Of a stretch of 64,000 bases of DNA, positions 3,260 through 57,321 are shown piece by piece. Source of the stretch: an uncultured Lachnospiraceae bacterium (GTDB lineage: Bacteria; Bacillota; Clostridia; Lachnospirales; Lachnospiraceae); NCBI GenBank assembly GCA_902777355.1, contig CACYTU010000003.1:54291-118290 (forward strand). The letters are read 5' to 3'. The notes under the pieces are model-generated. The model was not told the DNA's origin, searched no databases, and was given only the letters and a program-made list of their open reading frames with translations. Positions within the stretch are counted from its first letter, which is position 1. Each line of letters begins with the position of its first letter. The position numbers and the translations under genes are program-made.

Positions 3260-3428
3260 GGTCACGCCCTGCAGGAACTATTCAGCTGCAGGCTCCGGGG
3301 TCACTCCCTGCAGGAACTATTCAGCTGCAGGCTCCGGGGTCATGCCCTGCAGGAACTATTCAGCTGCAGGCTCCGGGATCACGCCCTGCAGGAACTATTC
3401 AGCTGCAGGCTCCGGGGTCACGCCCTGA
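3260..3428. repeat. 39-bp tandem repeat duplicating the 3' end of engB
   Basis: Four near-identical 39-bp copies start at 3260, 3299, 3338 and 3377, with a fifth, diverged partial copy from 3416 inside the gene. The 3377 copy holds the last codons and TAG stop of engB (minus strand). The copies to its left repeat the coding tail GVTPEPAAE-stop followed by FLQG. The unit is 13 codons long. The short plus-strand frame across it is an artefact. Confidence 0.9.
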
Positions 3429-4084
3429 ACGGACTCTTCAGCCTCCACTGCCGGGGTACCGTCAGCCGGCCCCTGCGTCAGCAGTTGGTCCAGAACGGCA
3501 TAGATTTCCTCCCTGCCGGCTTTTGTCTGGCCTGACCAGGGGATGATCCGGATCTGACCTGCCTCCTTATCCGGCAGCACATGGCTCTCCTCGCGCAGAG
3601 TCCTGCGAAGGAGTGCCACCTGCTTCTGCAGCTGGCTGCGTTTGATCTTGTCGGACTTGGTCGCAATGATGACCGGGGTAATGCCGGCCTGGAGTATCCA
3701 GTCGTACATCATGACGTCCTGTCCGGTCGGCTCATGCCGGATATCGAGCAGAAGGAAAACCGCGCGGAGCTGGGCACTGGTGGAAAGATAGCGCTCGATC
3801 ATTTTGCCCCACTGTTCCTTGACCTTTACATTCGCTCTGGCATAGCCATATCCCGGCAGATCCACCAGGTGGAATTGTTCATTGATACGATAATAATTGA
3901 TCGTCTGTGTCTTACCGGGCTGTGAACTCACTCGAGCCAGAGCTTTCCGGTTCATCAGCCCATTGATCAGGGTCGATTTTCCGACGTTGCTCCTCCCCGC
4001 AAATGCAAATTCCGGCAGGGTACCTGCCGGAATTTTGCTGGTAACCCCGCAGACAAGCGATAGTTCGACTGATTTGATTACCAT
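3395..4084 (-). CDS. engB: Ribosome-biogenesis GTPase EngB/YsxC
   Basis: TRAFAC-class GTPase needed for large ribosomal subunit assembly. G1 is GRSNVGKS, G3 is DLPGYG, G4 is TKSDK, with the family motif QPGKTQTINYY between G1 and G3. The start chosen is the ATG at 4084 (MVIKSVELSLV), preceded by AGGTGA at normal spacing; an upstream in-frame ATG would add nine residues. The C-terminus extends past the usual end with an acidic, low-complexity tail (EAEESVQGVTPEPAAE) that is part of the 39-bp repeat array. Many Firmicutes have lon between clpX and this gene; here the two are separated only by the clpX-derived 29-bp repeats. Confidence 0.95.
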   Translation of the reverse strand: MVIKSVELSLVCGVTSKIPAGTLPEFAFAGRSNVGKSTLINGLMNRKALARVSSQPGKTQTINYYRINEQFHLVDLPGYGYARANVKVKEQWGKMIERYLSTSAQLRAVFLLLDIRHEPTGQDVMMYDWILQAGITPVIIATKSDKIKRSQLQKQVALLRRTLREESHVLPDKEAGQIRIIPWSGQTKAGREEIYAVLDQLLTQGPADGTPAVEAEESVQGVTPEPAAE

Positions 4085-4103
4085 TATAGTTTCACCTGTT
4101 CTT

Positions 4104-4277
4104 TCAGGCAATTGGCTGCCTGCATTTTTCGGTCAGACATTTGACTGTCTGCGCTTTTCGTTCAGACATTTGTCAGCCTGCGCTTTTCGTTCAGGCAATT
4201 GACTGCCTGCGCTTTTCGTTCAGACATTTGACTGCCTGCGTTTTTCGTTCAGACATTTGACTGCCTGCGTTTTTTCC
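4104..4277. repeat. 29-bp tandem repeat (6 copies) phased on the clpX stop codon
   Basis: Six 29-bp copies start at 4104, 4133, 4162, 4191, 4220 and 4249. Every copy begins with TCA, the complement of TGA. The copy at 4249 is the real end of clpX (RRQSNV-stop, read on the minus strand). The other five fill the whole clpX-engB gap up to the engB ribosome-binding site. 29 is not a multiple of 3, so the copies are not a protein repeat. Confidence 0.95.
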
Positions 4278-5604
4278 GCTGGCCACTCCCCGCCGGCTTT
4301 GATACGCGCGGCTTTTTCACTTTTTCGGGGAGCGGAGGCTTTTCACCATGCACGATCTTCGGGGGTGCAGCGCCCTCCACAGAATCCTTTGTAATGGTAC
4401 AGGACACAATAGTATCATCAGAAGGAATCTCGTACATAACGTCCATCATGGTCTTCTCCATGATCGAGCGCAGGCCTCTGGCACCTGTCCCGCGGTCCAC
4501 GGCAAGATCAGCGATGGCCTCCACGGCATCGTCCTCGTACTCGAGATTGACGCGGTCGTAGGAAAACAGCTTCCTGTACTGTTTGAGGATCGCGTTCTTG
4601 GGCTCCTTGAGGATTCTGATCAAGGCCTCTTTGTCAAGTTCGTCCAGCGTGACCACCACAGGCACACGGCCGATAAACTCAGGAATAAGACCGAATTTGA
4701 TCAGGTCCTCCGGAAGGACGCTCTTGATCACGCTGCCGACCTTCTTCTCTTCTTTACCCTGGATCTCTGCATGAAAGCCCATGGACCTCTTGTCCATGCG
4801 GTTGTTGATGATCTTGTCAAGCCCGGCAAACGCGCCGCCGCAGATAAAAAGGATATTGGTGGTATCGATCTGGATCAGTTCCTGCTGGGGGTGCTTGCGC
4901 CCGCCCTGGGGCGGCACTGAGGCCACTGTGCCCTCAATGATCTTGAGCAGAGCCTGCTGGACACCCTCGCCGGAGACATCTCTTGTGATCGAAACATTCT
5001 CTCCCTTTTTGGAAATCTTATCTATCTCGTCGACATAGATAATTCCCACCTGAGCCCGCTCGATATTGTAATCTGCCGCCTGGATCAGCTTCAGAAGAAT
5101 ATTTTCCACGTCCTCGCCGACATAACCTGCCTCAGTCAGTGTCGTCGCGTCAGCGATGGCAAAAGGCACGTTGATGATCTTTGCGAGTGTCTGCGCGAGA
5201 TATGTCTTTCCGGATCCGGTCGGTCCCAGCATCAGAATATTACTCTTCTGCAGTTCTACGCCGTCGTCCTTGTCAAATTCCTCTCTGGCGCGCACGACAC
5301 GCTTGTAATGATTGTACACCGAGACAGAAAGAACCTTTTTGGCCTCCTCCTGGCCGATGACATACTCATCCAGAAAGCGCTTGATCTGCGCGGGCTTTAG
5401 AAGCTTGATTCCATCTGTATCCAGGGTCGAGAGCGACATGTTCTCGTCCCGCTCTGACTCCTCCAGAATATCCATGCAGATCGTCACACATTCATCACAG
5501 ATGTAGACCCCTTCCGGCCCGGAGATCAGTCTGTTGACCATATTCTCCGTCCGGGTGCAGAACGAGCATCTGCGCATGGGATACATTCTCTTATTGTCTG
5601 CCAT
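4249..5604 (-). CDS. clpX: ATP-dependent Clp protease ATP-binding subunit ClpX
   Basis: AAA+ unfoldase that feeds substrates to ClpP. The N-terminal zinc-binding domain has CSFC and CDEC. Walker A is GPTGSGKT and Walker B is IIYVDEIDK. The pore loop GYVGEDVE and sensor-2 region GARGLRS are intact. The 451-residue length slightly exceeds the usual 415-430 because of a basic C-terminal extension ending in KKRRQSNV. It lies just downstream of clpP (24 bp), so both are probably on one transcript. The end of the gene is amplified into the 29-bp array. Confidence 0.98.
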
Positions 5605-9605: not shown

Positions 9606-9980
9606 ACAAATTGCCTCCTCAATACTAAAGCCAACAGAAACTGCCTTCTTAAGAAAACCATGCTTGTTATCATTGTATCAAACAGACACCGGAATCGCCA
9701 CTGCTTTTTTACAATCTTTTTCATTCTTTTCAGGCATATTTTTTTCAGGAATCATGCCGGGAATTATTTCAACAATTATTATGACTGCTTTCGCAATCTG
9801 TGTTAAGCGCATTATTCCATGTGTGTATATGGCATTTTGCAAAAATCCCGCCCACATACTCAAACCCTGCCTGCCGGTCCTGCATTGTTATTTATCCGCA
9901 GTTACGATATTATTAAGAAGTAATCGATGCACAGCATCATTCGTGTTTTCTGCGCAAAGCGCTTCGACATGGAGGTAAAA
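9606..9980. other. Divergent intergenic region hydrogenase / DJ-1
   Basis: 375 bp between divergent genes. On the minus strand a TGATACAAT extended -10 sequence (9679-9672) may drive the hydrogenase. It is otherwise A/T-rich with no convincing gene. A possible longer reading of the DJ-1 gene from 9927 is not supported by a ribosome-binding site. Confidence 0.5.
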
Positions 9981-10556
9981 ATGTTCGAGCCGAAAACAGA
10001 TAAAAAAACCGCCATCTTCTTCGCGGACGGGTGCGAGGAAATCGAAGGTCTGACCGTGGTCGACCTTCTCTACCGCGCCGGCATTCCCTGCACAAAAGTT
10101 TCGATCAACGACAAACCCGAAGTCACTTCATCCCACGAGATCACATTCCGCACGGATACCACGATCAAAGAGCTGAATTTTGACGAATATGACATGCTGA
10201 TCCTTCCCGGAGGTGTCCCCGGAACCCCCAACCTGCGTGCCTGCGAACCGCTCATGGAACAGGTCGTCTCTTTTTACAAAAAAGGAAAGCAGATTGCCGC
10301 AATCTGTGCCGCGCCCGGTATCTTCGCCGAACTCGGCCTTCTGAAAGGCATCCCCGCCACCTGCAACCCTACCCGGGACCAGCTGCTGATCGACAGCGGA
10401 GCTCTCCTCTCCCACGATACTGTGGTCGTCAGCGGAAATATCATCACCAGCCGCGCAATGGGCACTGCCGTCCCCTTCGGCCTCGCGATCGTCTCCCACT
10501 ATCTGGGCCAGGACACCGCCAGGGCGCTGCAGGAAAATATCCTTTACTGTGTCTGA
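9981..10556 (+). CDS. DJ-1/PfpI (ThiJ) family protein
   Basis: 191 residues. The class I glutamine-amidotransferase-like fold shows MLILPGGVPG near the N-terminal half, the nucleophile elbow cysteine in AAICAAPGIFAELG, and a C-terminal family motif (NIITSRAMGTAVPFGLAI). Family members act as deglycases, chaperones or proteases of uncertain substrate. The start at 9981 is set by GGAGGT eight bases upstream; earlier in-frame codons at 9927 lack one. It stands alone, divergent from the hydrogenase. Confidence 0.9.
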   Translation: MFEPKTDKKTAIFFADGCEEIEGLTVVDLLYRAGIPCTKVSINDKPEVTSSHEITFRTDTTIKELNFDEYDMLILPGGVPGTPNLRACEPLMEQVVSFYKKGKQIAAICAAPGIFAELGLLKGIPATCNPTRDQLLIDSGALLSHDTVVVSGNIITSRAMGTAVPFGLAIVSHYLGQDTARALQENILYCV

Positions 10557-10588: not shown

Positions 10589-10775
10589 GCTTCTGGGTTT
10601 TCTACAGCCTGATAGGTGATCTGCGTTTCCAACAGCAGACAAGGCCCCTGCGTTTCTCACAGTTAAATAAGAACCCTGCGTTTTCCACAGTTAAATAAGA
10701 ACCCTGCGTTTTCCACAGTTAAATATAAACTCTGTGTTTCCCACAGCAAAAAAAGGCTTCTGCGTCTTCCGCAGA
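10589..10775. repeat. 28-bp direct repeats downstream of the DJ-1 gene
   Basis: Degenerate copies of CCTGCGTTTTCCACAGTTAA plus ATAAGAAC run head to tail. The three central copies are nearly identical, and the outer ones decay to a core of CTGCGTTTTCCACAG. Unlike other arrays here, no clear copy of the gene end is included. Confidence 0.8.
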
Positions 10776-21029: not shown

Positions 21030-21076
21030 ATTCTATTCCGTTACAAGGCTTGATCAGCCGCAGATATTTTTTGTTA

Positions 21077-21184
21077 TCATTCCTTCTTTCATCCGGAGTC
21101 TGATCATTCCTGCTCCCATCCGGAGTCTGATCATTCCTGCTCCCATCCGGAGTCTGATCATTCCTTCTTCCATCGGGAATCTCC
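21077..21184. repeat. 27-bp tandem repeat (4 copies) duplicating the 3' end of nrdG
   Basis: Copies start at 21077, 21104, 21131 and 21158. The 21158 copy is the nrdG end, with the TGA stop as its first three bases. The other three lie downstream of the stop. If read through, the unit would encode a PDGSRNDQT-type repeat. Confidence 0.92.
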
Positions 21185-21760: not shown

Positions 21761-21772
21761 TGTCACCTCTTT

Positions 21773-21820
21773 GTGATATCTCTTTGTGATATCTCTTTGT
21801 GATATCTCTTTGTGATATTG
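21773..21820. repeat. 13-bp tandem repeat in the nrdG leader
   Basis: Three exact copies and a fourth, decayed copy of GTGATATCTCTTT. On the minus strand each unit ends in AAAGAGATATCAC, resembling the real nrdG ribosome-binding region AAAGAGGTGACA. The array multiplies Shine-Dalgarno-like AAAGAG motifs just upstream of the start. Confidence 0.85.
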
Positions 21821-22028: not shown

Positions 22029-22180
22029 GCGGCCGGACTAAATCTGTCCGCGGCCTGCTGCGGGTGATCATCTACAGGTCTGCACTGCAGCTTTATTCCG
22101 GCAGGATCATGTCTGTCCGCGGTCTTCTGCGGGTGATCATCTTCAGGCCTGCACTGCAGCTTTATTCCGGCCGGACTTCC
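22029..22180. repeat. 69-bp tandem repeat duplicating the 3' end of the YD lipoprotein gene
   Basis: The TAA stop at 22162-22164 with its flank recurs exactly 69 bp downstream at 22093. A third, partial copy begins near 22029. The shared unit includes CGGAATAA (gene end), AGCTGCAGTGCAG and ATGATCACCCGCAG on the minus strand. Confidence 0.88.
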
Positions 22181-24864: not shown

Positions 24865-24986
24865 GTACTCCCCCTTCATAAGGATAACCGGAAAAGGGCC
24901 GCAAATGCTTATGCGGACAAGTAAGATCCGGAGTGAAAAACCGGCGCATCGGCGTGTATTTTCATTCTGCCAGACGTGTAAAGTAC

Positions 24987-25015: not shown

Positions 25016-25019
25016 ACCA

Positions 25020-33891: not shown

Positions 33892-33929
33892 AGTCATACA
33901 TATATGATTCATGCACAGGAGGTATAAAA

Positions 33930-35041: not shown

Positions 35042-35042
35042 A

Positions 35043-40600: not shown

Positions 40601-41680
40601 CTGACCGGGAATGATATTTTCCCGTATGCCCGCATGATCCTGATAAACGGGATCGGGTATAACTCCATATCCTTCCATTTCAATATTCGAAGGAACACGG
40701 ATATCCGCCCAGAGATGGCAGTCATAGTCCGGTGACTCAAATCCTGCAGCCGAATCTGCCGGCTTCGCCGCGCAGGAAAATTTCCACGATCCATTGAGTG
40801 AAAAGCGAAAAACGGAGCGGCCGGCTGTTCCTGCCGGCTGCCGCGCGCCTCTTGCCAGTTCCGCCTCATCCGCAAAAAACAAATGATTGGAATGGACCGG
40901 CAGACAGTTCTCCCGGATGCGGTCCGGATCCGCAATGATCGAGAGATCAAATACTTTCTCTCCCGGCCAATTTCCATCAGACAAGGCCTGACCGGTCTCT
41001 GTCCCGGCCCCCGCCTTACTGGTCTCCGCCATATTGGTCTCTGCTTTGGTCTCCGCCTGGTTGGTCTCTGCTTTGATCTCCGCCTGGTTGGTCTCTGCTT
41101 TGTTCCCGGCGTGATCCGGGTTCTCCCCGGGCGCAGTCTGCCCCTTCTCTTCCTCGCTCAGCCTGTTTTTGGCCATGCGCCGGTTCCTGTTCTCCTCCGC
41201 AGTCCTGGCTGCATTCACCATGTACCTGGCATACTTCTGAAGGAAGGACTCGAGCCTGTCTCCGATTCCGTCAAAGCAGATCCCGAGCAGGTCTTCGCCG
41301 CTGCTCTCTCTGTGCCGCTTGAGCCTGGTGCGGAACCTCTGGATCGTCCGCAGGCTGAGAGGCTGTCCGACAGCATTCGTGATATGAAGCGCTGTCCGCA
41401 GACGCAGGTCAAACATGGCCGCTTCCACCAGATCCTCATCCGACATTCCCCGGATCTCCTGCAGGAGCATAGCCCCCGCAAGCACATTGACGGGAACATT
41501 TCTCCTTGACTTCCTCTCGCTGTAGAGCGGCGCGAAAATCTTTTCATCTATATAGGGAAAAATATCCGAAGCAAAGGCTACTGCCCAGGATTTCTCCAGT
41601 GCTTCTTTTTCTTTCCCTGTCAGCGGACCGAGCTCCGTCCCAAAACCAAGCTGTTCATAAGTATATGTGGATAGTGCCAT
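37601..41680 (-). CDS. Chimera: IS transposase N-terminal (DUF772-like) domain fused to a catalytically degenerate LacZ-type (GH2) protein
   Basis: 1359 residues. Residues 35-160 match the DUF772 transposase N-terminus (IFAPLYSERKSRRNVPVNVL, MLLQEIRGMSDEDLVEAAM, LSLRTIQRFRTRL), with no DDE domain. Residues 190-220 are KAETNQAE repeats. From about 255 it follows GH2 beta-galactosidase: sugar-binding domain (FNPTASYVKYF, FSGIFRDVYLY), Ig-like domain interrupted by a Glu/Lys-rich run (575-610), then the start of the TIM barrel (INAVRTGRHPHSPVLDRFCD). The barrel is cut short: it passes within about 85 residues to the region after the nucleophile (GIIDGMRRPYAG). Neither the acid/base NE nor the nucleophile CEY motif is present. 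C-terminal small-chain domains (FTFYGNGPAENYAG) are intact. No signal peptide. Probably non-hydrolytic. Confidence 0.85.
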   Translation of the reverse strand: MALSTYTYEQLGFGTELGPLTGKEKEALEKSWAVAFASDIFPYIDEKIFAPLYSERKSRRNVPVNVLAGAMLLQEIRGMSDEDLVEAAMFDLRLRTALHITNAVGQPLSLRTIQRFRTRLKRHRESSGEDLLGICFDGIGDRLESFLQKYARYMVNAARTAEENRNRRMAKNRLSEEEKGQTAPGENPDHAGNKAETNQAEIKAETNQAETKAETNMAETSKAGAGTETGQALSDGNWPGEKVFDLSIIADPDRIRENCLPVHSNHLFFADEAELARGARQPAGTAGRSVFRFSLNGSWKFSCAAKPADSAAGFESPDYDCHLWADIRVPSNIEMEGYGVIPDPVYQDHAGIRENIIPGQDLFDFNPTASYVKYFCLSSSMKRFVEEGSPLIISFQGVEGGFALWCNGHYVGYSEDCFAPSEFDLTPFLAEGENTLAVRVFGRTSSSRQDSRDHYRFSGIFRDVYLYTVPAAHLFDLRILPEPDENLETGRLKIEAQVQISKPYADREKSRKQRLRLYYALKKGEEQVLEGSAAVNGTESCKVRISEELASPALWSAEDPQLYDLILRLISEKREEAEEIKDAEEKKEIEEPKEIEETKEIKEEIKETEAGAADESEKTEAYDETGQVLLEIVREKVAFRRFGKKDGRIYLNGKKIFFRGVDYREFSCDSGHAVPADTVYQDLLLMKKININAVRTGRHPHSPVLDRFCDELGIYLVTGDFPESDTAERIPAESSANVNCSACPALCELTDQGEFIPEFIEPSIRLRNRYGEDFLAYRSRIGEDMADGDPDNSPGSKTDSGIIDGMRRPYAGRMQETAYHYQSIRLQVGRDRVLIRNDNLFTSTDRYDCVVCLDREGERIAETLLITAVPPLSEEEYTLPQAILQKIQQIGAEKTSLPVEYAVTVSMRLRRDCAWAGKGYETAFGQGVFLTEKGTVSDDETETVSGCGNETASDTGKNAVSLSNTDMRQPALSEGAVEIRDTDETIQFAVRTSCGWLDLTRGPGHIGIRGDSFEALFSLAQGGIVSFRRGSGLYPAGSLSGGSARGGRSSFAGAELFEKMPRPCFWRAPSGNDADKSQAARCGIWKLAEEYLIPRRETLRIFAEDECFFLHQEYQLPFSGGSAAAGYRFYGDGRLIMSLEWVPDRIGSDQHGTGNDQAGLFPAIPPLPVFGFSFRLNADLDRFTFYGNGPAENYAGCSRGARLGIYSCKVAENMTHHPVPQECGSRSGVRWACVTDRLGRGIRFTAGSREGIFCQEGRSGLYAPSKALSDAPSNAAYDASLDAPGRAAMDFSALPYSHQELEAASHPYELPPVHYTNVRCALMGADSQYREMSPEDGSIPPGFLPADRKLYFEVTVEGI

Positions 41681-43296: not shown

Positions 43297-44265
43297 ATGA
43301 TATTAGTGTATTTTCTGGTTTTGGTCGCGGGATTTGCCGCCCTGGTCAAGGGCGCTGACATGTTTGTGGACGGAAGCGCTTCTCTGGCGAAAAAATTCAA
43401 TGTCTCGGAGCTGGTCATCGGTCTCACGATCGTGGCATTAGGCACCAGCGCGCCGGAGTTCGCTGTCAGCACCACAGCTGCCCTCAGCCATTCCAATGAG
43501 CTTGCCCTCAGCAATGTCGTCGGATCAAATATCTTTAATCTCCTGGTCGTTCTGGGATTCTGCGCGATGTTTTCCCCGATTCCGATCTCATCCGAGATCA
43601 TAAAGAGAGATTTTCCCTTTTCCATTCTTGTGACAGTGGCGATCCTGGTCTTCGGCGGGGGACTTGCCATGGGAGGAGCGGAAAGCCGGACGATCGGAAT
43701 GATCAGCAGACCGGAAGGTCTGATCCTCCTGGCCTTATTCCTGGCCTATATGATCTTTCTGGTAAAGAATGCGAAAAATGACCCTCAGCAGGAGGCAGAA
43801 GCCGGGCTTTATGCGGACATCAGTCTCAAAAAATGCCTGCTGCTCATGATCGCAGGCATCACACTCATTGTCGCCGGCGGTCAGGCAGTAGTCAATTCCG
43901 CCAAGTCGATCGCATATTTCTTCGGCATGTCGGAAACGCTTGTAGGACTTACGATCGTTGCTGTCGGCACTTCTCTCCCCGAGCTTGTCACCTCGATCGT
44001 AGCAGCCCGCAAGCATGAAAACAGTCTCGCGGTGGGCAACGTCGTGGGATCCAACCTCTTCAATCTCATGTTTATCCTCGGCTCTACCGCTGCCATTCAT
44101 CCCCTGGCCGTCACCGCCGAGCTTTCGGTCAACCTGGTTTTCCTGATCTTCATCAGCGTACTGAGCCTTGTCTTTATCATTACCAGGAGAGAACTGAGCA
44201 GGGCGGAAGGAGCCGTAATGACTATGCTGTATGTGGGTCAGGTCGCTCTTTCAGTCATCAGTTGA
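43297..44265 (+). CDS. CaCA-family cation/Na+ exchanger (YrbG-like), probably Mn2+ efflux
   Basis: 322 residues, about ten membrane helices in two inverted halves. Each half carries the alpha-repeat signature: GLTIVALGTSAPEFAVSTTA and GLTIVAVGTSLPELVTSIVA. The family exchanges Ca2+ for Na+ or H+. Because a Mn2+ riboswitch sits in the leader, manganese export is the likely job here (inference). Member genes downstream of yybP-ykoY switches are known in other bacteria. A 14-bp duplication starts one base before the stop codon. Confidence 0.93.
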   Translation: MILVYFLVLVAGFAALVKGADMFVDGSASLAKKFNVSELVIGLTIVALGTSAPEFAVSTTAALSHSNELALSNVVGSNIFNLLVVLGFCAMFSPIPISSEIIKRDFPFSILVTVAILVFGGGLAMGGAESRTIGMISRPEGLILLALFLAYMIFLVKNAKNDPQQEAEAGLYADISLKKCLLLMIAGITLIVAGGQAVVNSAKSIAYFFGMSETLVGLTIVAVGTSLPELVTSIVAARKHENSLAVGNVVGSNLFNLMFILGSTAAIHPLAVTAELSVNLVFLIFISVLSLVFIITRRELSRAEGAVMTMLYVGQVALSVIS

Positions 44266-44289
44266 TTTTCAAGAATTGATTATCAAAAT
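44262..44289. repeat. 14-bp duplication spanning the antiporter stop codon
   Basis: TTGATTTTCAAGAA (44262, contains the TGA stop) is followed directly by TTGATTATCAAAAT (44276). Confidence 0.65.
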
Positions 44290-45125
44290 TGTTTTCCGAA
44301 AAACGCTCAGAAGCAATGCCCGGTAACACTATTCGGAAAAAAGCCCGTCAGCAGTACTCAGAAACAGTGCTAAGAACAGTGTTAAGAAACAATGCCCGGA
44401 ATCTCCTATGTAACATGGCGATGTTCCGAATCTTATGACACTTTAATGACATTTTTTATGACATACTTTTTTTTAGCCCCATCAGAAAAGACAGAGGATC
44501 AGCCCCTGTCTTTTTTCATATCTGTCGTATTATCTTATCTGACTTTGCACTATTCTTCTGCCAGGTCTCCGGTATAGCACTGCGGTCTTCCGTCAGGCTT
44601 TTCCCCGGCTGCCATACCTCCACCGGCAGAGAACCCGCTCGGCAATTTCCAGGGCTGCGTACATCAGGGCGCTCATACCCATGAGCAGGAGGATCCCGCT
44701 GTACATCTCTGGGTAGCGTCTTGCGCGCCGGATGCGTCCGCGCGCCGCACGGGTACACGTGTGGCATTTGCGGCATTTGCGGCAGTCCGCAGCCACAGAC
44801 TTTATGCTAAAGACCAGTATACCACACACGGGCGGAAATGGGGGCAAAAGTGCGGAATACTGGAATACTATCTGCGAATATCTGAAAACCGTACGTGAAC
44901 AATATTCCGCGTTTCAGGAATGTCTGCACAGTAATGCGCTCCCCGGTGACTCAACATTCCCGGGAAAATAACCGTTGAAAAGGCCGGCTGAAATTTGTAC
45001 CATTATTACAGGATTAACGCGTTCAGGCCGGCAAAACAATCAGAAATCATAATAGCTGCAGCAATCGCAAATCGCAGAACAAATCAAAAGCAATCCGGTG
45101 ATATGTCAAAAGAGGAGGTAAGCAT
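44266..45125. other. Long intergenic region antiporter - nitroreductase
   Basis: 860 bp. It holds the 14-bp duplication, loose repeats of CAATGCCCGG and AACAGTG (44310-44400), a terminator at 44485-44517, and about 600 bp with no gene that can be supported (short Cys-rich frame at 44593-44847 has only a TTG start and no ribosome-binding site). Confidence 0.6.
44485..44517. terminator. Intrinsic terminator
   Basis: AAAAGACAGAGG / CCCCTGTCTTTTTT hairpin with T-run on the plus side and A-run on the other, about 220 bp after the antiporter. Confidence 0.75.
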
Positions 45126-45638
45126 ATGGAATTTAAAGAAGTGATAAAAGCACGTTATTCCTGCAAAAAATATGGGGACCGCAAGGTTGCTCCTGAGAAA
45201 ATCCAGGCCATTCTGGAAGCCGGGCGTCTGGCTCCCACGGCAAAGAACCTGCAGGAGCAGCATGTGTATGTGATCCAGTCCGCAGAAGGCCTTTCCAAAA
45301 TCGATGAGGTGACACCCTGCCGCTACGGCGCACAGACTGTGCTTGTCGTCGCTTTCGACAAAACCAATGTCTTCACCTATCCCGGAGAAAAGCGGGATTC
45401 CGGTATCGAAGATGCCTCAATTGTGGCCACCCACATGATCCTGGCTGCAGCAGATGAAGGAGTGGACAGCTGCTGGCTCAACAACTTCGACCCCGACAAA
45501 CTGGCGGCAAGCCTGGGTCTGCCCGAGAATGAAGAGATTCTGATGGCTATGGATCTGGGCTATGCGGCTGAAGGAACCGGTCCTCTGCCGAATCACAACA
45601 GCCGCAAGCCTCTGACCGAGACCGTGACCTATCTTTGA
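45126..45638 (+). CDS. Nitroreductase family protein
   Basis: 170 residues. FMN-dependent NAD(P)H oxidoreductase fold: the N-terminal FMN phosphate-binding signature KARYSCKKYGDRKV, LEAGRLAPTAKNLQ, and the C-terminal MDLGYAAEGTGPLPNHNSRK region. Substrate unknown (nitro compounds, quinones or flavins). GAGGAGG precedes the ATG. The 3' end is followed by diverged repeats starting at TGA. Confidence 0.92.
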   Translation: MEFKEVIKARYSCKKYGDRKVAPEKIQAILEAGRLAPTAKNLQEQHVYVIQSAEGLSKIDEVTPCRYGAQTVLVVAFDKTNVFTYPGEKRDSGIEDASIVATHMILAAADEGVDSCWLNNFDPDKLAASLGLPENEEILMAMDLGYAAEGTGPLPNHNSRKPLTETVTYL

Positions 45639-45735
45639 GCCTGTGACGGGTTCTGCCCCACCGGGAGATCCTCCCGCTGAGGGTTCTTCTCCAGCCGGAG
45701 CTCCTCCCCGCTGAGGATTCTTCTCCAGCTGAATT
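45636..45735. repeat. Tandem repeats starting at the nitroreductase stop codon
   Basis: Units starting with TGA at 45636 (real stop), 45678, 45712 and 45730, of 42, 34 and 18 bp, sharing GGTTCTTCTCCAGC-like and GGAG-TCCTCCC-CGC segments. Confidence 0.65.
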
Positions 45736-45737
45736 TT

Positions 45738-46831: not shown

Positions 46832-46968
46832 CTCTTGAATCCCTACACCTTTCATCCGCTCCCGTCTCCGACGTGGAACAGCGTTCATGACAGATTATTT
46901 ATGACAGAACATTTCCGGATAAAAATATCGAATGATTTTTGGTTTTTTCCAGGTAATTGTCCTGCTTT

Positions 46969-47058
46969 TTTGCTCTTCTGTTCTTCTGCTCTTCTGCTCT
47001 TCTGCTCTTCTGTTCTTCTGCTCTTCTGTTCTTCTGTTCTTCTGTTCTTCTGTTCTTC
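46969..47058. repeat. Ten-base tandem array TTCTTCTGCT
   Basis: About nine copies of TTCTTCTG[C/T]T or CTCTTCTG[C/T]T in direct order, upstream of the asparaginase pseudogene. Likely slippage-prone. Confidence 0.9.
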
Positions 47059-49216: not shown

Positions 49217-51175
49217 TCAACCGATTGTAGCGATCTTAGTGTCTCCTGCAGTCACTGCCTTGCCGTTTTCGAACGAGAGATTCTCATTTCCGTTGTCCTC
49301 GGTCACAACCATCATGGTGACCAGGGGATGACCGGCAGCTTTGATCTTGGCTGTGTCAAATGTGATCAGCTTGTCGCCTTTACGGACGACCTGACCTTCC
49401 TTGACATGGCAGGTGAAACCGTCGCCGTTCATGCTGACGGTGTCGAGACCGACGTGGAGCAGGATTTCCGCTCCGTTGGCAATGCGGAGGCCGACTGCGT
49501 GGTTGGAGGCCGGCATGGTGGTCGTAACGACCGCATCCGCGGGAGAAACGAGCACATTGTCTGTAGGTTCAATGGCAATTCCTTCGCCGAGGGCGCCGGA
49601 AGCAAAGACCTGATCAGGTACTTCGTGAATATCAACTGTCTTGCCGGAGAGGAAGGCGCCCATCTCTACGGGACCGGAGACGGTCTCAAGACCCGCTCCC
49701 TCAGCAGCCTCGGCAGCTTCCGCCGCCATAGCGCTCTCTGCCGCCAGGGCTTCGGCCTGCTTGTCAATGCCGCGCGCCTTGCCCAGCACAGTGGTCAGAA
49801 TAAAGGGTACACAGACTGCGATCAGCATGGCGATTGCATAGAATCCCCAGAACTGAGGCTTGATGGACAGGATGCCGGGAAGTCCGCCGACACCGATACT
49901 GGAGGACATGCAGCCTGTCAGAACGGAGAACATGCCGGCAATAGCGGAGCCTGTCATACCGCAGACGAAGGGGAACATGTACTTGAGGTTGATACCGAAG
50001 ATAGCGGGCTCTGTGACGCCCAGATAACAGGAGATGCAGGAAGGAACGTTGACTTCCTGAGCCTCTGCGTTCTTTCTCTGGAGGAAGATCATGCCCAGAA
50101 CGGCGCTTCCCTGCGCGATATTGGACAGAGCGATCATAGGCCAGAGCATTGTGCCGCCGAAGTCAGCGATCAGCTGCAGGTCGATGGCGTTGGTCATGTG
50201 ATGCAGACCGGTGATGACCAGCGGTGCATACACAAAGCCGAAGATCGCGGCGAAGACAACTTTCAGAGGTCCGGTGATTCCCGCGTAAACGATGGAGGAG
50301 ATAATGGAACCGATCTTCCAGCCGATGGGGCCGAGGATGAAGTGGGCCGCCATGACCGCGAGGGTCAGACTGAAGAAGGGTACAAAGATCATCGACACCA
50401 CTGCGGGTATGACCTTGCGGAAGAATTTTTCCAGATAAACCAGTGTAAAGGCTGCCAGCATGGCAGGGATGACCTGGGCCTGATAGCCGATCATGTTGAC
50501 CTGGGCGAAGCCGAAGTTCCACTTGGGAATATCAGCGGCAGCTGTGGTCGCCACAGCATAGGCGTTGAGCAGCTGGCCGGATACCAGCGTCATGCCCAGG
50601 ACCAGACCCAGCATTTCTGTGGTGCCCATCTTTTTGGTGATGGACCAGCAGATGCCGACCGGAATACCGACGTGGAAGACCGCTTCACCGATCAGCCACA
50701 GGAAATGGTCGATGCCTGCCCAGAACTGGGACAGCTCGACCAGGGTGTGTCCGCCCTGGAAGACATAGAGACTGTCGATACAGTTTCTGAAGCCCAGGAT
50801 CAGACCGCCGGTGATGATAGCCGGCAGCAGCGGTGTAAAGATTTCCGCCAGCACCGTCGCCAGACGCTGCAGCGGATTCTGGTTCTGCTTGGAAGCCTGT
50901 TTGACAGCGTCCTTGGAGACGCCGGAAATACCGGATACTTCCGTAAAATCATTATAAAACTCATTGACCGTATTTCCAATGATGACCTGGAACTGACCCG
51001 ACTGTGTGAAAGTTCCCTTTACCACCTTCATGGATTCGATCTTCTTGATGTCCGCCTTGCCCGGATCATTCAGGACAAAACGCATTCTGGTCATGCAGTG
51101 AGCGACAGCGGCTACATTCGACTTTCCGCCCACATACTCCAGAAGTTCCTTACAATCTTGTGTGTACTTTCCCAT
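49217..51175 (-). CDS. treP: PTS trehalose transporter EIIBCA
   Basis: 652 residues in order EIIB (phospho-Cys in AHCMTRMRFVL), EIIC (about ten membrane helices, including ITGGLILGFRNCIDS and GVTEPAIFGINLKY), an Ala/Glu-rich linker (GIDKQAEALAAESAMAAEAA), and EIIA of the glucose type (active His in EILLHVGLDTV). It imports and phosphorylates trehalose. Having its own EIIA removes the need for the glucose-PTS one. Start 51175 (MGKYTQDCKELL) follows GGAGG; an in-frame ATG at 51190 is less well placed. It is expressed from the operator-bearing promoter at 51515-51543. Confidence 0.95.
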   Translation of the reverse strand: MGKYTQDCKELLEYVGGKSNVAAVAHCMTRMRFVLNDPGKADIKKIESMKVVKGTFTQSGQFQVIIGNTVNEFYNDFTEVSGISGVSKDAVKQASKQNQNPLQRLATVLAEIFTPLLPAIITGGLILGFRNCIDSLYVFQGGHTLVELSQFWAGIDHFLWLIGEAVFHVGIPVGICWSITKKMGTTEMLGLVLGMTLVSGQLLNAYAVATTAAADIPKWNFGFAQVNMIGYQAQVIPAMLAAFTLVYLEKFFRKVIPAVVSMIFVPFFSLTLAVMAAHFILGPIGWKIGSIISSIVYAGITGPLKVVFAAIFGFVYAPLVITGLHHMTNAIDLQLIADFGGTMLWPMIALSNIAQGSAVLGMIFLQRKNAEAQEVNVPSCISCYLGVTEPAIFGINLKYMFPFVCGMTGSAIAGMFSVLTGCMSSSIGVGGLPGILSIKPQFWGFYAIAMLIAVCVPFILTTVLGKARGIDKQAEALAAESAMAAEAAEAAEGAGLETVSGPVEMGAFLSGKTVDIHEVPDQVFASGALGEGIAIEPTDNVLVSPADAVVTTTMPASNHAVGLRIANGAEILLHVGLDTVSMNGDGFTCHVKEGQVVRKGDKLITFDTAKIKAAGHPLVTMMVVTEDNGNENLSFENGKAVTAGDTKIATIG

Positions 51176-51223
51176 TACAACCTCCGTCATGTAAGTAAGA
51201 TTTCTGTTAAACTCCCGCTTCGT

Positions 51224-51370
51224 ACGTAATACAGTATTGAGATAATCTGAATACAGTGTTTCAATCTCATAAAAAGTATTAAGCTCATTTCAAACAATAA
51301 TAAGATCTCTTAAAACAGTATTGAGATTACTTAAAACAGTATTGAGATTACCTGAATACATTATTGAGAC
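51224..51370. repeat. Degenerate 21-bp repeats in the treP leader
   Basis: About seven copies of TCTCAATACTGTTTTAAGTAA (minus strand sense), two nearly identical in the middle, the rest decayed. They occupy the leader immediately before the treP start. Confidence 0.8.
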
Positions 51371-52504: not shown

Positions 52505-52985
52505 CGCATCCTCCTAATCCAGCCCCGGAAATGCCCAACTGCTCTGTTTGCTGTGACAGTCTTCCGCCTTATGCTGTTTCGTCCTGTTTTATATTCTCAA
52601 GAGGAACACCCGTATTCTGTATTAGATTATCAGCGGATTATTCCCTGCCAGTTTATTATAACACAGGCTTTACCCATCCACAATGAATCTGTGATAAGGC
52701 GGGCCTTCATGAGACCTCTACCGTACGAATCTGTAACGGGCCGGCCCTCCACCATATGTGCCGGTGATGAGTCGGCTCCTCCTTGCTTCCCCTTACAGAA
52801 AAAAAGCTGCCGGCCACACCCCGTTCAGGGTGCAGCCGGCAGTCTTGTGTTCACCGGTCACATTCCTCGGCCGGTCTCATTATTTGCACCTTATCTGCCG
52901 CGGCATGTTCGGTCAAATTCCGCAGCTCAGGCAATTCACGGCCGTTCCCTTCATCTGCGCCTGCCGCGGCATGTGCCGTCAGTTT
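52505..52985. other. Intergenic region treR - mtmB-like operon end
   Basis: 481 bp: terminator at 52799-52842, the 66-bp duplication of the mtmB-like gene end, and about 280 bp ahead of treR with no further signal. Confidence 0.65.
52799..52842 (-). terminator. Intrinsic terminator of the transporter/mtmB-like operon
   Basis: On the minus strand, CTGCCGGC...GCCGGCAG with an inner CACCC/GGGTG pairing, followed by a run of seven T residues. Confidence 0.85.
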
Positions 52986-53000
52986 TCACAGTTCAAGCCC
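52895..53000. repeat. 66-bp diverged duplication of the mtmB-like 3' end
   Basis: CTGCCGCGGCATGTGCCGTC with the flanking gene end (52961-53000) recurs as CTGCCGCGGCATGTTCGGTC at 52895. The stop-spanning part GAACTGTGAAAACTGAC is mirrored by GAGCTGCGGAATTTGAC. Confidence 0.7.
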
Positions 53001-54362
53001 CAGCGCACGCAGGTCTTCCACGACCTCGTCGTACATCTTCTGCCACTCTGGCAGGGGCTCGATGGTCTCCATGTCATATGCCTCGTCGAAGCACTTGCCG
53101 GGATTTCCATCCTGCATCTTAAAGGCATGCTCGTACTTGTCCAGCAGAGCCAGGACGATCTCGTTGGCCTTGCCCCGGGTCAGCTTCATGCGGGCCACGG
53201 CTTTACCGACTTCGCCCATCAGGCGGCACTCCAGGCCGGTTCCGTGAGGAACGCGTCCATTGGCCGCGCCGATCCCTTCCAGATGGCCGCCGCTCACAGT
53301 GACCACGATGGAATTGGCCGCCACCTCGTAGAGCAGCTCTTTGGTCATGCTGCCGCTGGTCGGCCACAGGTCGCACACAATGATGGCGGGAGCATGCTTT
53401 GCGAAAGTCTGGCAGAGCACGGACTGCAGCCAGAGGCATCCGCGGGCGGTCGTTGCCACGTCCGTGATGTGGATCGGGTGGCAGAGATGATAGTCAGCCG
53501 CCGCGAACAGATTGGCCGCCATGATGGAGGCGATCATAATCATACAGCTTCCCGGCGCGTCGCCGCCCAGTCCGCCGACCATGGTGCAGGCCAGAGAGGC
53601 ATTCTTCATACCGTAGTCCAGTGAACTGGCCGCGCGCACCAGATTGCCGTTGTCCATGATCAGCTCATTGAACAGGGCCACCAGGTGAGAATCGCAGGGT
53701 CTGAGCCAGCGCTCCGACACAGCCGCCAGGTCTCCGACCTCGGTCACGGCGCTCTCCGCCGCCAGAAGGCCCATGCCGGGTCTTCCAACCTTTTCAAGAG
53801 CCTTGCGCAGGTACTCCATTTCCCGTCTGACCGCGAAGATCTCGGAAGGCTCCCCGTTCTGGACCGCATAGCCGTCCACATCGATCAGGGATCCGCAGGT
53901 CAGAAGGTCGATGACCGGCTCCTTGGCGACGCTCTCCACAATCTGATAGTACAGTCTCTCAGGAGTCGGGCAGCCCGGATTACCGGCCCAGATCGCCGGC
54001 GGCCGCTCGTCCTCGACGCCGCGTGCCACCAGGGTGAAAGCATCCTTGCCCTCTCCCATGGTCAGCTCGGTCTTCATATTCCGCAGGCCCTCTTCGATCT
54101 CCTCCGGGGTCAGCTTCATGATCCTCCCGGTCGTCATATTGTAGATTCCGGTACGAATCAGCAGCTCCTTGGCAGCTTTGAACATATCCGCGAAAAGATC
54201 GTCATCCTCCGGGATCAGGAGGTCCTTATCCCAGTCAAATTCATACTCATCCACCAGGTCCATGACGTTATCGATGATATACTCAAGATCCCAGTCGTTT
54301 TTACTGACTTTTTTCCCTGTTTTTCCGCGCTCGTAAATATCCAGAAACTGTCTGGTATCCAT
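52986..54362 (-). CDS. MtmB-family (monomethylamine methyltransferase-like) protein without pyrrolysine
   Basis: 458 residues, the same length as Methanosarcina MtmB and similar end to end: DIYERGKTGKKVSKNDWDLE at the N-terminus, TGIYNMTTGRIMKLTPEEIE, GRPGMGLLAAESAV, ECRLMGEVGKAVARM and a C-terminal YDEVVEDLRALGLEL. In MtmB the catalytic pyrrolysine (UAG) follows GRPGMGV; here that position, residue 200, is Leu (CTG at 53765-53763). The enzyme class transfers methyl groups from methylated amines to a corrinoid protein; no corrinoid protein or reactivase is in the window. It is the last gene of an operon with a BMP-type ABC transporter, which may bring in its substrate. GGAG precedes the ATG. 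Confidence 0.82.
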   Translation of the reverse strand: MDTRQFLDIYERGKTGKKVSKNDWDLEYIIDNVMDLVDEYEFDWDKDLLIPEDDDLFADMFKAAKELLIRTGIYNMTTGRIMKLTPEEIEEGLRNMKTELTMGEGKDAFTLVARGVEDERPPAIWAGNPGCPTPERLYYQIVESVAKEPVIDLLTCGSLIDVDGYAVQNGEPSEIFAVRREMEYLRKALEKVGRPGMGLLAAESAVTEVGDLAAVSERWLRPCDSHLVALFNELIMDNGNLVRAASSLDYGMKNASLACTMVGGLGGDAPGSCMIMIASIMAANLFAAADYHLCHPIHITDVATTARGCLWLQSVLCQTFAKHAPAIIVCDLWPTSGSMTKELLYEVAANSIVVTVSGGHLEGIGAANGRVPHGTGLECRLMGEVGKAVARMKLTRGKANEIVLALLDKYEHAFKMQDGNPGKCFDEAYDMETIEPLPEWQKMYDEVVEDLRALGLEL

Positions 54363-54395: not shown

Positions 54396-54470
54396 AGATT
54401 CTCCAATCTTTCAGGAAGAATTATTCACCAATCTTCCGGGATGTATTATTCTCCGATCTTCCAGGATGTC
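54396..54470. repeat. 25-bp tandem repeat (3 copies) duplicating the BMP gene 3' end
   Basis: Copies start at 54396, 54421 and 54446, exactly 25 bp apart. The 54446 copy is the gene end (stop TAA, then WKIGE backwards). The copy at 54421 keeps the stop; the 54396 copy has lost it. Confidence 0.92.
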
Positions 54471-55777
54471 GTCACGCCTTCCACGAAGAATTCCTGTTGG
54501 ATAATGTCTTCATCGGACATCACTTCGCCGTCCGCCACGAGAACGTTGCCTGCATTGTCCTTGAGCTCGCCGGCGAAAACCTTGACTTCCCCGGACTCGA
54601 TTTTTGCCTTCAGATCATTGACCTGGCTGACCACTTCTTCGGGGACAAAGTCCGCAAAGTCAGAGAGCGCCGAGCACTCGCCGCCCCAGTAATAGAAATC
54701 ATCAGTGGTAGCTGTTCCCTCTGCCACGTTGATCATGATATTTTTGAAGATCGGGGCAAAGTTCCACATATGGGAGACGAGGACCGCCTTGGGAGCCAGA
54801 GCGGACATGTCATTGTGGTAGCCTACGACAAATGCGCCGTTCTTTTCACAGGTCTCGGGAATAGCGGGGGAAGAAGCTTCCATGCCCATGTATTTGATCC
54901 CGGCGTCGATCAGAGACTGGGCACACTGGGTCTCTTTATCAATGTCATACCAGCTGTCCGCGGAAGCGACGCGCACGGTGGCCTCAGGATTGGCGTACTG
55001 AGCGCCCAGAGTATAGGCATTGATGGCGGTGCGGACAGAGAACTCGTTGAAGGAAGCGGAGAATCCGAGCTCGGGATTCTCGTCCTTGGAAAGCAGTTCG
55101 CTGGCGTAGCCTGCAAGGAACATACCCTCATAGCTGCGGATCTCGTAGCCGATCAGGTTGTTGACCTTGTTGCCCCACTGCGCGAAAACGACTTCCGGAT
55201 GCTGTGCCGCGATTTCGGGCAGATAGGAAGCGTAGCCTGTGGACGCGCCGATGATCAGGCTGCAGCCCTCGTTGATCAGCTCTTCGGCAGCTGTCTGTGT
55301 GACCGCCTGGTCTGTGTCATCGATGGATTCGAGAACGATCAGGTTCTCCTCCGGAATGCCGAGTTCTTTCATAGCCGCGACGATGCTCTGGTGTGTCGCC
55401 TGGCACCAGCCGCCGTCATCCACGATATAGGACTCGATCTCACCGATCTTCAGGCTGGAAAAATCTGTGCCTTCCGCCGGAGCCTGATCCTTTTTGTCCT
55501 CCCCGATCAGGTTGACAGCAGCCGGCAGTGTCTCAGCCGCGATCTCTGCAGCTCCTGTGGATACCGCAGCGGCGGCCTCGGTTCCGGCAGCAGCAGCTGC
55601 CTCAGCATCCTGTACAGCTGTGCCCTCTTCCGAAGGTGCCTGCGCCTCGGTCTTTGCCCCATCCTCAGCGGCCTGCTCGGCAGCCTGTTCTGCTGTTGAT
55701 GCGCTCTCGCTGCAGCCCGAGAGAACCGCGACCGCGAACACAGCGGCAAGACAGACGGAAATCAGTTTTTTCTTCAT
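54446..55777 (-). CDS. BMP-family substrate-binding lipoprotein of an ABC transporter
   Basis: 443 residues. A lipoprotein signal (VCLAAVFAVAVLSGC) is followed by about 80 residues of Ala/Glu linker and a BMP/PnrA-like domain (DDGGWCQATHQSIVAAMKEL, CSLIIGASTGYASYLPEIAA, AGYASELLSKDENPELGF, AFVVGYHNDMSALAPKAVLV). BMP proteins mostly bind nucleosides; ligand here is unknown. The start at 55777 has AAAGGAG upstream. Genes for two permeases and an ATPase lie upstream on the same strand. Confidence 0.9.
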   Translation of the reverse strand: MKKKLISVCLAAVFAVAVLSGCSESASTAEQAAEQAAEDGAKTEAQAPSEEGTAVQDAEAAAAAGTEAAAAVSTGAAEIAAETLPAAVNLIGEDKKDQAPAEGTDFSSLKIGEIESYIVDDGGWCQATHQSIVAAMKELGIPEENLIVLESIDDTDQAVTQTAAEELINEGCSLIIGASTGYASYLPEIAAQHPEVVFAQWGNKVNNLIGYEIRSYEGMFLAGYASELLSKDENPELGFSASFNEFSVRTAINAYTLGAQYANPEATVRVASADSWYDIDKETQCAQSLIDAGIKYMGMEASSPAIPETCEKNGAFVVGYHNDMSALAPKAVLVSHMWNFAPIFKNIMINVAEGTATTDDFYYWGGECSALSDFADFVPEEVVSQVNDLKAKIESGEVKVFAGELKDNAGNVLVADGEVMSDEDIIQQEFFVEGVTTSWKIGE

Positions 55778-56044
55778 GACTTCTCCTTTCACATAACTCT
55801 TTCATAACTTTTTGATGACTGCTACATTACTGTTTCTTTTCTGCTCATTACTTTTTTGCTTTTATATCAACGTTCCATCGATGTTTCCCCCTCAATGAAA
55901 AACAACTGATGGAAGAACTGATATCCGAAATAAGTGTTATCTGAAAAAAAGCACCCGAAAACGCTGCCTGAACAGCGATTTCTTCCAATAACCTAAATCT
56001 TTAAAACCGGAAGACCGGAAAACGTGATAAACCCGGAACTCTTA

Positions 56045-56977
56045 CTATCTCGTCTCACGGTCATAGGGGATCGTGAGGGCTGCCGGTGCGGCTGAGCGGC
56101 GTCCGCGGAAGTTTCCTGTCGTAAAGATCAGGGCAATGATCGTCGCCACATAGGGCAGGGCGGAAAAGACCTGGGACGGAACATGGGGAAAGACAGTCTG
56201 GACATCGATCCCGATAATGCTGATAGCCCCAAAGAGCAGGGCCCCGAAGGTCGCTGTCAGCGGATTCCAGGCAGAAAAGACGACCAGGGCTACCGCGATC
56301 CATCCCTTTCCGCTGGTCATACCGTCACTCCAGAAGTTGGTGTAGGCCAGAGACACGACCGCGCCGCTGACCGCTGTCATAATAGACCCGAAGGTCACAT
56401 AGGCGTAGCGCAGGGCGAAAACATTATAGCCCGCCGAATCCAGCGCTGCAGGATTTTCGCCCAGGGCACGCAGGATCATGCCGGCCCGCGTCTTGTAGAT
56501 ATAGATCATGGACAGCGGAATAATGGCATACATGAGGTAGACCAGAATATTCTGATTGAAGAGGGATGGCCCCAGAATCGGGATCCGCGACAGCAGGGGG
56601 ATGGCGACCGGCTCAAAGGCCAGCTCCGCGTTGACACCGCTGACCGGCTTTCCCAGAAATCCGGAAAGACCTGTGCCGAAGGTCAGTATGGCCATACCGG
56701 AGACAGTCTGGTCTGCCTGCATAGTGATCGTCAGGAAGGAAAAGACCAGCCCCAGGACTGCCCCGACCAGGACCACTACGATCATTGCCAGGATCAGGTT
56801 CTGTTTGTATACTGCGACCATATATCCGGACACGGCTCCCATCAGCATAATGCCTTCCAGACCCAGATTCATGATTCCCGCACGCTGTGAAAATATCTCT
56901 CCCACCACCGCGTACAGCACAGTGGCTGCATAGATGACTGCCGTGGATATGATTGAGATTATCAGTGTTGTAGTCAT
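56045..56977 (-). CDS. ABC transporter permease (BMP/nucleoside type, second subunit)
   Basis: 310 residues, about nine membrane helices. The conserved motif RAGIMNLGLEGIMLMGAVSG is typical of the second permease in BMP nucleoside transporters, and ALGENPAALDSAGYNVFALR is the cytoplasmic coupling loop that contacts the ATPase. The start at 56977 has GGAG upstream. It pairs with the permease at 57244. Confidence 0.92.
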   Translation of the reverse strand: MTTTLIISIISTAVIYAATVLYAVVGEIFSQRAGIMNLGLEGIMLMGAVSGYMVAVYKQNLILAMIVVVLVGAVLGLVFSFLTITMQADQTVSGMAILTFGTGLSGFLGKPVSGVNAELAFEPVAIPLLSRIPILGPSLFNQNILVYLMYAIIPLSMIYIYKTRAGMILRALGENPAALDSAGYNVFALRYAYVTFGSIMTAVSGAVVSLAYTNFWSDGMTSGKGWIAVALVVFSAWNPLTATFGALLFGAISIIGIDVQTVFPHVPSQVFSALPYVATIIALIFTTGNFRGRRSAAPAALTIPYDRETR

Positions 56978-57087
56978 AAAAACATCTCCGACAAGCGCCC
57001 GCGCGCCCAAAAGCGACATTCCTTTTCTGTAAAAATCAGTGGTATTTCCCGCAAAAATTATTTAGCCGGAAGGTCTCCGGAAATACT

Positions 57088-57321
57088 CTGTTTTCCTGAC
57101 TTTTCCCCGCCGATGCACTCATGGCGGCTGAAAAAACATTTGTCCGGAAGAACTCCGGAAAAACGCTGTTTTCCTGACTTTTCCCCGCCGATGCACTCAT
57201 GGCGATTGAAAAATCATTTGTCCGGAAGGACTCCGGAAAGGCTCTATTTTCCGTTCTTTTCCCCGCCGACCCGCTCGTATCGGTTGAAAAAATCACCCGC
57301 CACCACGAACAGCATGATACT
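57088..57321. repeat. 78-bp tandem repeat (3 copies) duplicating the permease 3' end
   Basis: Copies start at 57088, 57166 and 57244, 78 bp (26 codons) apart. The 57244 copy is coding and ends in TAG; in the other two that triplet is CAG. A fourth, partial copy lies at about 57040-57087. The copies fill almost the whole gap to the next permease. Confidence 0.93.

Follow-up and report, generated by a model that had tools for sequence, protein, structure and literature searches.

The DNA analysed here, referred to as the window, is a 64,000-nucleotide stretch of the genome of an uncultured Lachnospiraceae bacterium (positions 54291–118290 of contig C3 in G000, an assembly of 3.87 Mb in 150 contigs, 84% complete), in which the 3' ends of many genes are followed by short direct repeats belonging to a genome-wide, clade-specific load of tandem arrays. 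A first-pass annotation had listed such repeats at 14 genes. Gene boundaries come from a simple dicodon caller, which makes stops more reliable than the approximate starts. Arrays were detected with Tandem Repeats Finder (TRF), using a lower cut-off for the gene-end table (score of at least 40, array reaching to no more than 60 bp from the 3' end). In this way, 14 arrays were found at the 3' ends of 13 called genes, 11 of them with the stop codon inside. No TRF call was obtained for degV and mtmB, which carry older spaced copies instead, one copy of each holding the stop of the gene. By TRF and the search for spaced copies together, direct repeats were retrieved at the 3' ends of all the 14 listed genes, four being weak cases, namely degV, mtmB, the antiporter gene (14 bp × 2.7, 82%) and the gene beginning at 33081, where the TRF array lies 42 bp beyond the stop and shorter repeats extend into the last codons.

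Profile scans with Pfam and NCBIfam named YsxC/EngB, ClpX, NrdG, YD-repeat, zinc-ribbon, DegV, PlsY, Na/Ca exchanger, nitroreductase, MtmB, Bmp and BPD_transp_2 permease. Gene 33930–35006, taken as the vWA gene of the first-pass annotation, had no match in either collection and the vWA name is unconfirmed.

Repeats at gene 3' ends:
3259–3442 (−): engB/ysxC (gene 3395–4111), 39-bp unit × 4.7, 93% match, holding the last codons and the stop
4099–4274 (−): clpX (gene 4249–5604), 29-bp unit × 6.1 (87-bp higher-order unit × 2), across the stop and occupying the whole gap to engB
21076–21182 (−): nrdG (gene called at 21158–21760), 27-bp unit × 4, across the stop
22043–22175 (−): YD-repeat protein gene (22162–24879), 69-bp unit × 1.9, across the stop
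25943–26186 (+): zinc-ribbon gene, 64-bp unit × 3.8, across the stop; terminator-like hairpin after the array (by eye)
29783–29923 (+): degV (gene 29000–29830), two 61-nt copies, spacing 80, 85% identical; copy 1 is the degV end with its stop, copy 2 holds the ATG listed for plsY (29907)
30588–30779 (+): plsY (gene 29907–30593), 36-bp unit × 5.3, across the stop
33699–33898 (+): nested repeats from the last codons of gene 33081–33719, 46-bp unit × 2.3 (TRF, 33762–33866) and 65-nt copies
35003–35156 (+): gene 33930–35006, 19-bp unit × 2.1 across the stop, then 38-bp unit × 3.0
44262–44399 (+): Na/Ca exchanger gene (43297–44265; the antiporter), 14-bp unit × 2.7 across the stop, then decayed copies at 38-bp spacing
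45648–45729 (+): nitroreductase gene (45126–45638), 34-bp unit × 2.4, beginning 9 bp past the stop
52895–52998 (−): mtmB (gene 52986–54362), two 38-nt copies, spacing 66, 79% identical, one across the stop
54398–54469 (−): Bmp-family gene (54446–55792), 25-bp unit × 2.9, across the stop
57053–57291 (−): ABC permease gene (57244–58422), 78-bp unit × 3.1, across the stop

Array density in the genome and in the clade

A single threshold was applied throughout the density counts (TRF score at least 60, period at least 10, match at least 75%), and the sample comprised 11 of the 24 congeners and RUG12648, beside G000. With 320 arrays in 855 kb, G000 reached 37.4 arrays per 100 kb, local stretches ranging from 10 to 75. 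The density, an impression in the first-pass annotation, is thereby measured. Congeners outside the clade defined below gave 0–8.5 arrays per 100 kb (G015 8.5, G016 5.2, G019 and G023 5.0 each, G004 4.2, G014 0; 20–120 kb each), and eight genomes of other families, used as order-level controls, gave 0–8.3 (20–80 kb each). In 79 other clpX neighbourhoods, mostly from Clostridia or Bacillota, 45 arrays were counted in 1.26 Mb, that is 3.56 per 100 kb, the top values among neighbourhoods of at least 10 kb being 18.8 (21 kb), 16.5 (12 kb) and 11.0 (18 kb). Shuffling in two-base blocks (455 kb) left 0 arrays against 159 observed, and chance is therefore excluded; three 2-kb contigs of G013 (L177–L179) are present in this shuffle-control set and omitted from the density counts.

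In a ClpX tree of 26 rows, which excludes locus L012, G000, G008, G009, G010, G013, G017 and RUG12648 form one clade with support 100/100. RUG12648, a metagenome-assembled genome (MAG), belongs to the same genus by its ClpX matches, its ClpX being 89% identical to that of G000. Six of the seven clade species hold 11–37 arrays per 100 kb, with values, besides that of G000, of 36.0 in G009 (30 kb), 19.0 in G008 (553 kb), 14.5 in G010 (75 kb), 12.8 in G017 (62 kb) and 11.4 in RUG12648 (2 arrays in 17 kb). Perfect tandems of at least two copies, indicative of recent events, amounted to 14.5 per 100 kb in G000 and 5.4 in four relatives from the clade; six congeners outside it gave 0.8, the order controls 1.3. 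Arrays fill 11.3% of the intergenic DNA of G000, and the array-free remainder contains weak decayed repeats, at 0.82 per kb in G000 and 0.82–1.04 across the clade, whereas the genus outside the clade shows 0.31 and the order controls 0.38 (shuffled 0.24).

Within arrays, copies show a median match of 90%. Between arrays, units are unrelated: among 214 noncoding arrays, 14 form seven pairs and 200 have no match at all. A common repeat family is thus rejected, in agreement with the first-pass view of a process and not a single family.

Position relative to genes and reading frame

Over the same 855 kb of G000, 42 arrays (42–44 by count) span a stop codon, where 19.1 are expected under uniform placement, and 2 (2–3 by count) span a start codon, where 19.0 are expected. 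Normalised to available positions, arrays overlap the stop at 2.34 per kb; downstream, the figure falls to 1.88 and then 1.78 over two successive 25-bp bins, to 1.53 between 50 and 100 bp, and to 1.26 and 1.17 further out, up to 250 bp. On the other side of the gene it is 0.37 across the start codon and 0.98 in the preceding 25 bp. Hence, in the comparison of stops with starts, gene bodies and intergenic positions proposed with the first-pass annotation, stops lie well above starts, but no discrete peak appears and the rate declines smoothly downstream. Relative to the next 50 bp, arrays overlap the stop 1.4 times as often in G000 (p = 0.11) and 1.7 times in G008 (p = 0.17). Gaps between convergent genes carry 2.28 arrays per kb, co-directional gaps 1.44 and divergent gaps 0.83. 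From these rates and the non-significant excess at the stop it follows that 3' ends are permissive, starts are not and divergent gaps are less so, while the stop codon does not emerge as a target. Gene ends with an array nearby had a terminator-like hairpin in the gap in 2/95 cases, those with no array nearby in 55/452 (Fisher p 0.0015). Where a gap does contain a terminator, 7 arrays precede it, 3 overlap it and 13 follow it.

Arrays were found in all intergenic classes and, nearly always in frame, within genes. The period is divisible by 3 in 100/104 coding, 16/44 stop-spanning and 45/161 intergenic arrays of G000, and in 41/42, 3/12 and 13/49, respectively, of G008. Such a pattern is predicted by selection on protein sequence, and it also argues against an assembly artefact. 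Per 100 kb of coding DNA, coding arrays number 15.3 in G000, 19.3 in G009 and 8.9 in G008, compared with 0–5.4 in congeners outside the clade and 0–5.6 in controls. The neutral explanation offered at first pass, namely that tandem duplications including the stop leave the protein unchanged and so survive, is supported by the abundance of stop-spanning over start-spanning arrays (44 vs 3), by stop-spanning periods free of the frame and by the smooth rate from the stop into the 3' flank.

Turnover between species

Orthologous 3' ends were compared between G000 and its clade relatives (127 comparisons, 81 genes, with L177–L179 and L083 included). An array was present in G000 in 26 cases, in the relative in 16 and in both in 3, compared with 3.3 expected (Fisher p 1.0); laxer settings gave 4 shared cases against 4.2 expected and 8 against 7.8. 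In a version of the test with 125 comparisons, 2 shared cases were found where 2.9 were expected, and the units of both pairs, the only ones for which units were compared, were no more alike than shuffles. Where G000 has an array, the relative has none in 22/24 (125-comparison set) or 23/26 cases (127-comparison set). Neither an array shared by descent nor any sign of a gene-specific propensity to attract arrays was found in these orthologous 3'-end comparisons. Gene ends gain arrays independently in different species, and the same gene may display independent stop-containing arrays, as engB does in G013 and G009. The duplication of gene 3' ends originally described is real as regards the arrays themselves, but since arrays extend across intergenic and coding DNA and orthologous ends share no propensity, it is the visible part of a genome-wide process.

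Duplication flanks and repair genes

Simple two-copy arrays were examined for the traces of their formation. In G000, the flanks of 39/57 such arrays match simulated blunt duplications of a random block. A stricter set of perfect two-copy arrays behaves similarly, with 19 cases in G000 (5 with long tails; one of the 19 is actually the 13-bp × 4 array at 21767 of the window) and 7 in G008 (0 with long tails). Hairpin-driven formation was also considered and rejected, as units with periods of 18–100 did not exceed array-free intergenic DNA in hairpin propensity (mean z −0.36 vs −0.63, 155 each, p 0.31). The A content of arrays is slightly raised (0.306 vs 0.286), and a strong A bias was not seen.

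Repair families were searched by profile in 25 genomes. MutS matched in 25/25, above cut-off in 21/25 including G000, G008, G009, G013 and G017; below cut-off were G001, G007 and G020, with pieces on two contigs, and the clade member G010 (75% complete), whose only MutS matches resemble other MutS-family proteins. A clade-wide loss of MutS was not seen in the 25 genomes, nor was one of RecJ (matched in 25/25, above cut-off in 21/25) or of the PolA 5' nuclease (PF02739) and PolA polymerase, both above cut-off in 25/25; the predicted PolA of G000 is an open frame of 975 aa. SbcC matched in 25/25 genomes (E ≤ 0.001; best match in G002 only 4e-4), but the test is weak because no genome reached the curated cut-off and only 1/14 control genomes did so. 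Ku, for end joining, was found in 0/25 genomes and, among 14 controls, only in B. subtilis. The Y1 transposase family occurs in 19/25 genomes (none in G002, G004, G006, G015, G016 and G020), and no link to arrays was made. As to a possible lengthening of C-terminal tails by 3' arrays, five comparisons of genes with and without such arrays gave p values of 0.13, 0.052, 0.83, 0.83 and 0.98.

Two side observations concern protein length. SbcC-like frames measure 1211–1361 aa in G000 (contig C46), G008 (C3), G009 (C48), G010 (C102), G013 (C170) and G017 (C84), and 1068–1096 aa in twelve other congeners; G005 (1155 aa), G007 (1147 aa) and G024 (1215 aa) lie between or overlap, G022 has 946 aa, and G011 and G021 have fragments. 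Moreover, when six array-poor congeners were compared with eight genomes of other families, the C-terminal tails of the congener proteins proved longer, by at least 8 aa in 20/58 pairs, and were shorter in 3/58.

Other arrays and genes of the window

Besides the gene-end repeats, the window contains the following arrays:
10621–10746 (+): intergenic, 28-bp unit × 4.5, beginning 65 bp past the DJ-1 family gene 9927–10556
21767–21818 (−): 13-bp unit × 4, 100% identical (recent), immediately upstream of the called nrdG start
25017–25119 (no strand assigned): intergenic, 38-bp unit × 2.7
25386–25560 (+): in-frame coding array, 24/48-bp unit, within the zinc-ribbon gene; the same process inside a gene
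30982–31042 (no strand assigned): intergenic, 23-bp unit × 2.7
41020–41102 (−): in-frame coding array, 27-bp unit, within the beta-galactosidase-like gene 37601–41680
46962–47058 (no strand assigned): intergenic, 8/24-bp unit
51227–51369 (no strand assigned): 21-bp unit × 6.8, 69% match, on the 5' side of the phosphotransferase system (PTS) gene 49217–51190 (−)

The duplicated degV end may have given plsY a new upstream start (29907), since copy 2 (29863–29923) holds the listed ATG and the Pfam PlsY match starts only at residue 33. By eye, the units at 4099–4274 and 10621–10746 resemble small hairpins in which, from copy to copy, changes in one arm are matched in the other. Gene 52986–54362 (−) encodes an MtmB-family protein (PF05369, E 1.4e-98) in a 458-aa frame without in-frame stops, near the Bmp-family and permease genes, and the 1359-aa frame 37601–41680 (−), which is beta-galactosidase-like and contains in-frame repeats, matches a transposase domain (DUF772) over residues 59–125.

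Comparison with known repeat systems

With units of roughly 10 bp upwards arranged head to tail, the arrays resemble minisatellites, or variable number tandem repeats (VNTR), in structure. MIRU/STAR-type repeats, too, are direct repeats in tandem close to gene ends, with a copy number that varies, and they are sequence families recurring at many loci. Unlike the dispersed families REP, MIRU and STAR, the noncoding units of G000 do not recur, apart from the seven pairs mentioned above.

The closest known case is that of the archaeal Borgs, which carry 20–76 perfect repeat arrays per 0.62–1.09 Mb with a strong A bias; their tandem repeats are genome-wide, intergenic and in frame within genes, recent and rarely common to relatives (PMC9879509). 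Like these, the arrays of G000 are pervasive, in frame in genes, rarely shared, in some cases begin inside the end of an open reading frame, and are flanked by partial copies; unlike these, they lie in a bacterial chromosome, are mostly imperfect and have no strong A bias (PMC9879509). When a Borg-type perfect threshold was applied (at least 3 units and at least 50 nt, with a unit of at least 9 nt added here), 8 arrays were retained in 855 kb (0.94 per 100 kb), compared with 320 overall, so that the arrays as a body fall outside that type.

Yeast deficient in rad27/FEN1 accumulates short tandem duplications with a unique part of 1–91 bp, flanked by direct repeats of 1–21 bp (ABA to ABABA; PMC5677150). 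The duplication size is comparable, but 39/57 simple arrays of G000 have no flanking homology beyond chance, although the other 18 could fit (PMC5677150), and the PolA 5' nuclease family, matched in all 25 genomes, gives no sign that the nuclease gene was lost. Over-represented intergenic tandem repeats with 6–11-bp units are described for Methanococcus voltae, M. aeolicus and Natrialba magadii (PMC4060949); these prokaryotes likewise have far more intergenic tandem repeats than expected, but their units are shorter than most in G000. Searching that paper for the term 'Clostridi' gave no match. No earlier description in Lachnospiraceae was found among the listed titles and abstract openings of open-licence papers.

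Discussion

What has to be explained is a high, clade-specific density of arrays gained independently in different species, filtered by reading frame and at starts and stops, with many perfect, recent copies. The best explanation, to which we assign a probability of roughly 0.75, is that short tandem duplication associated with replication or repair has become more frequent in this lineage, with ordinary selection acting as the filter; any particular enzyme would be named as the cause with much less confidence. According to this explanation, one clade of a Lachnospiraceae genus would have acquired a raised rate of short tandem duplication over the whole chromosome, with units mostly of 12–100 bp. 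The first step would be a single block duplication, in about two thirds of the simple G000 cases without flanking homology beyond chance, after which copy number would go up or down by ordinary slippage or unequal exchange and copies would decay through point mutation. Persistence would be set by purifying selection: within genes almost only in-frame duplications would survive, few copies would do so across start codons or in divergent promoter regions, and copies across stop codons and in 3' flanks would be nearly neutral, because the first copy retains the original stop. We infer that the rate itself, beyond retention, is raised, and the duplications probably arise at replication forks or during gap repair. 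The pattern seems to point to an unusual copying error and not to a special gene-end system.

Several observations weigh against this explanation. Apart from G000 and G008, the clade is represented by small samples of 17–75 kb per member, and G013 shows only 5.1 arrays per 100 kb (1 array in 19.5 kb); coding arrays are not elevated in G017 (2.0), G013 (0) and RUG12648 (0), all of them small samples. A partial third copy of at least 6 bp is present in 18/57 simple arrays of G000, where about 1.2 are expected, and in 3/23 of G008, the whole distribution of partial copies departing from that of blunt duplication in both genomes (p 4e-5 and p 0.003, respectively). Because of these partial copies and of the differing distribution, homology-driven slippage or partial copies perhaps account for about a third of cases. 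No mutator candidate emerged among the repair families searched by profile in 25 genomes, although the genomes are incomplete and presence does not equal activity. The weak excess at the stop itself, seen in both genomes, could be real. Per intergenic base, the contrast with congeners is smaller for some clade members, though not for G000, with 61 arrays per 100 kb in G015 (3 arrays, 35 kb) close to the 61.5 of G017 and the 66.8 of G010, and the larger intergenic share of G000 (20.6% vs 7.8–13.9% in congeners outside the clade) may raise retention, so that a rise in rate and relaxed selection are not fully separable from the present data.

That larger intergenic share is also what speaks for relaxed selection alone, in which small populations with loose intergenic DNA would retain more copies arising at a normal rate. 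This is unlikely, as density per 100 kb of intergenic DNA is itself raised (122 in G000 vs 0–61 in congeners and 0–29 in controls), in-frame coding arrays are also increased in G000, and the frame and start filters are still sharp. A selected function, in which the arrays would supply repeated stop codons, structures at RNA 3' ends or sites for protein binding, would suit the hairpin-like look of some units, such as those of the clpX array with their matching arm changes, but we regard it as decidedly improbable: units are unrelated and do not surpass array-free intergenic DNA in hairpin propensity, arrays are not conserved at orthologous ends and stop-spanning unit lengths are frame-free. Very improbable, too, is the site-directed duplication at gene 3' ends put forward at first pass, whether linked to the translation stop, to the termination of transcription or to R-loops. 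Stop-spanning arrays do reach 2.2 times the uniform expectation, and both genomes show a slight surplus relative to the 50 bp that follow; however, arrays occur throughout intergenic and coding DNA without a discrete peak at the stop, terminator-like hairpins are rare at array-bearing ends and arrays fall before, on and after terminators, and orthologous ends have no common propensity. As to an artefact of metagenome assembly, the clade members are fragmented drafts short of long reads (the genomes other than G000 being in about 100–660 contigs) and RUG12648 is a MAG, but copies are diverged, arrays respect the reading frame and shun start codons, and drafts of other species of the genus contain few or no arrays, which makes it extremely improbable.

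A broader version of the lineage-specific rise can be advanced tentatively, and is possible without being the likelier outcome. An inherited change in replication or repair might produce short tandem duplications, largely independent of pre-existing homology, at a level exceeding that of relatives several-fold to tenfold. Rounds of duplication and decay would then have built much of the intergenic DNA, as a bacterial chromosomal counterpart of Borg repeats.

Within the genomes sampled, the finding is notable for the density of arrays in a bacterial chromosome and for the availability of close relatives with low density for comparison. Gene-end repeats resembling a special system can follow from general duplication and selection, and a set of relatives whose load of tandem duplications ranges from low through medium to high constitutes a natural series in which the genetic cause could be mapped by comparison.

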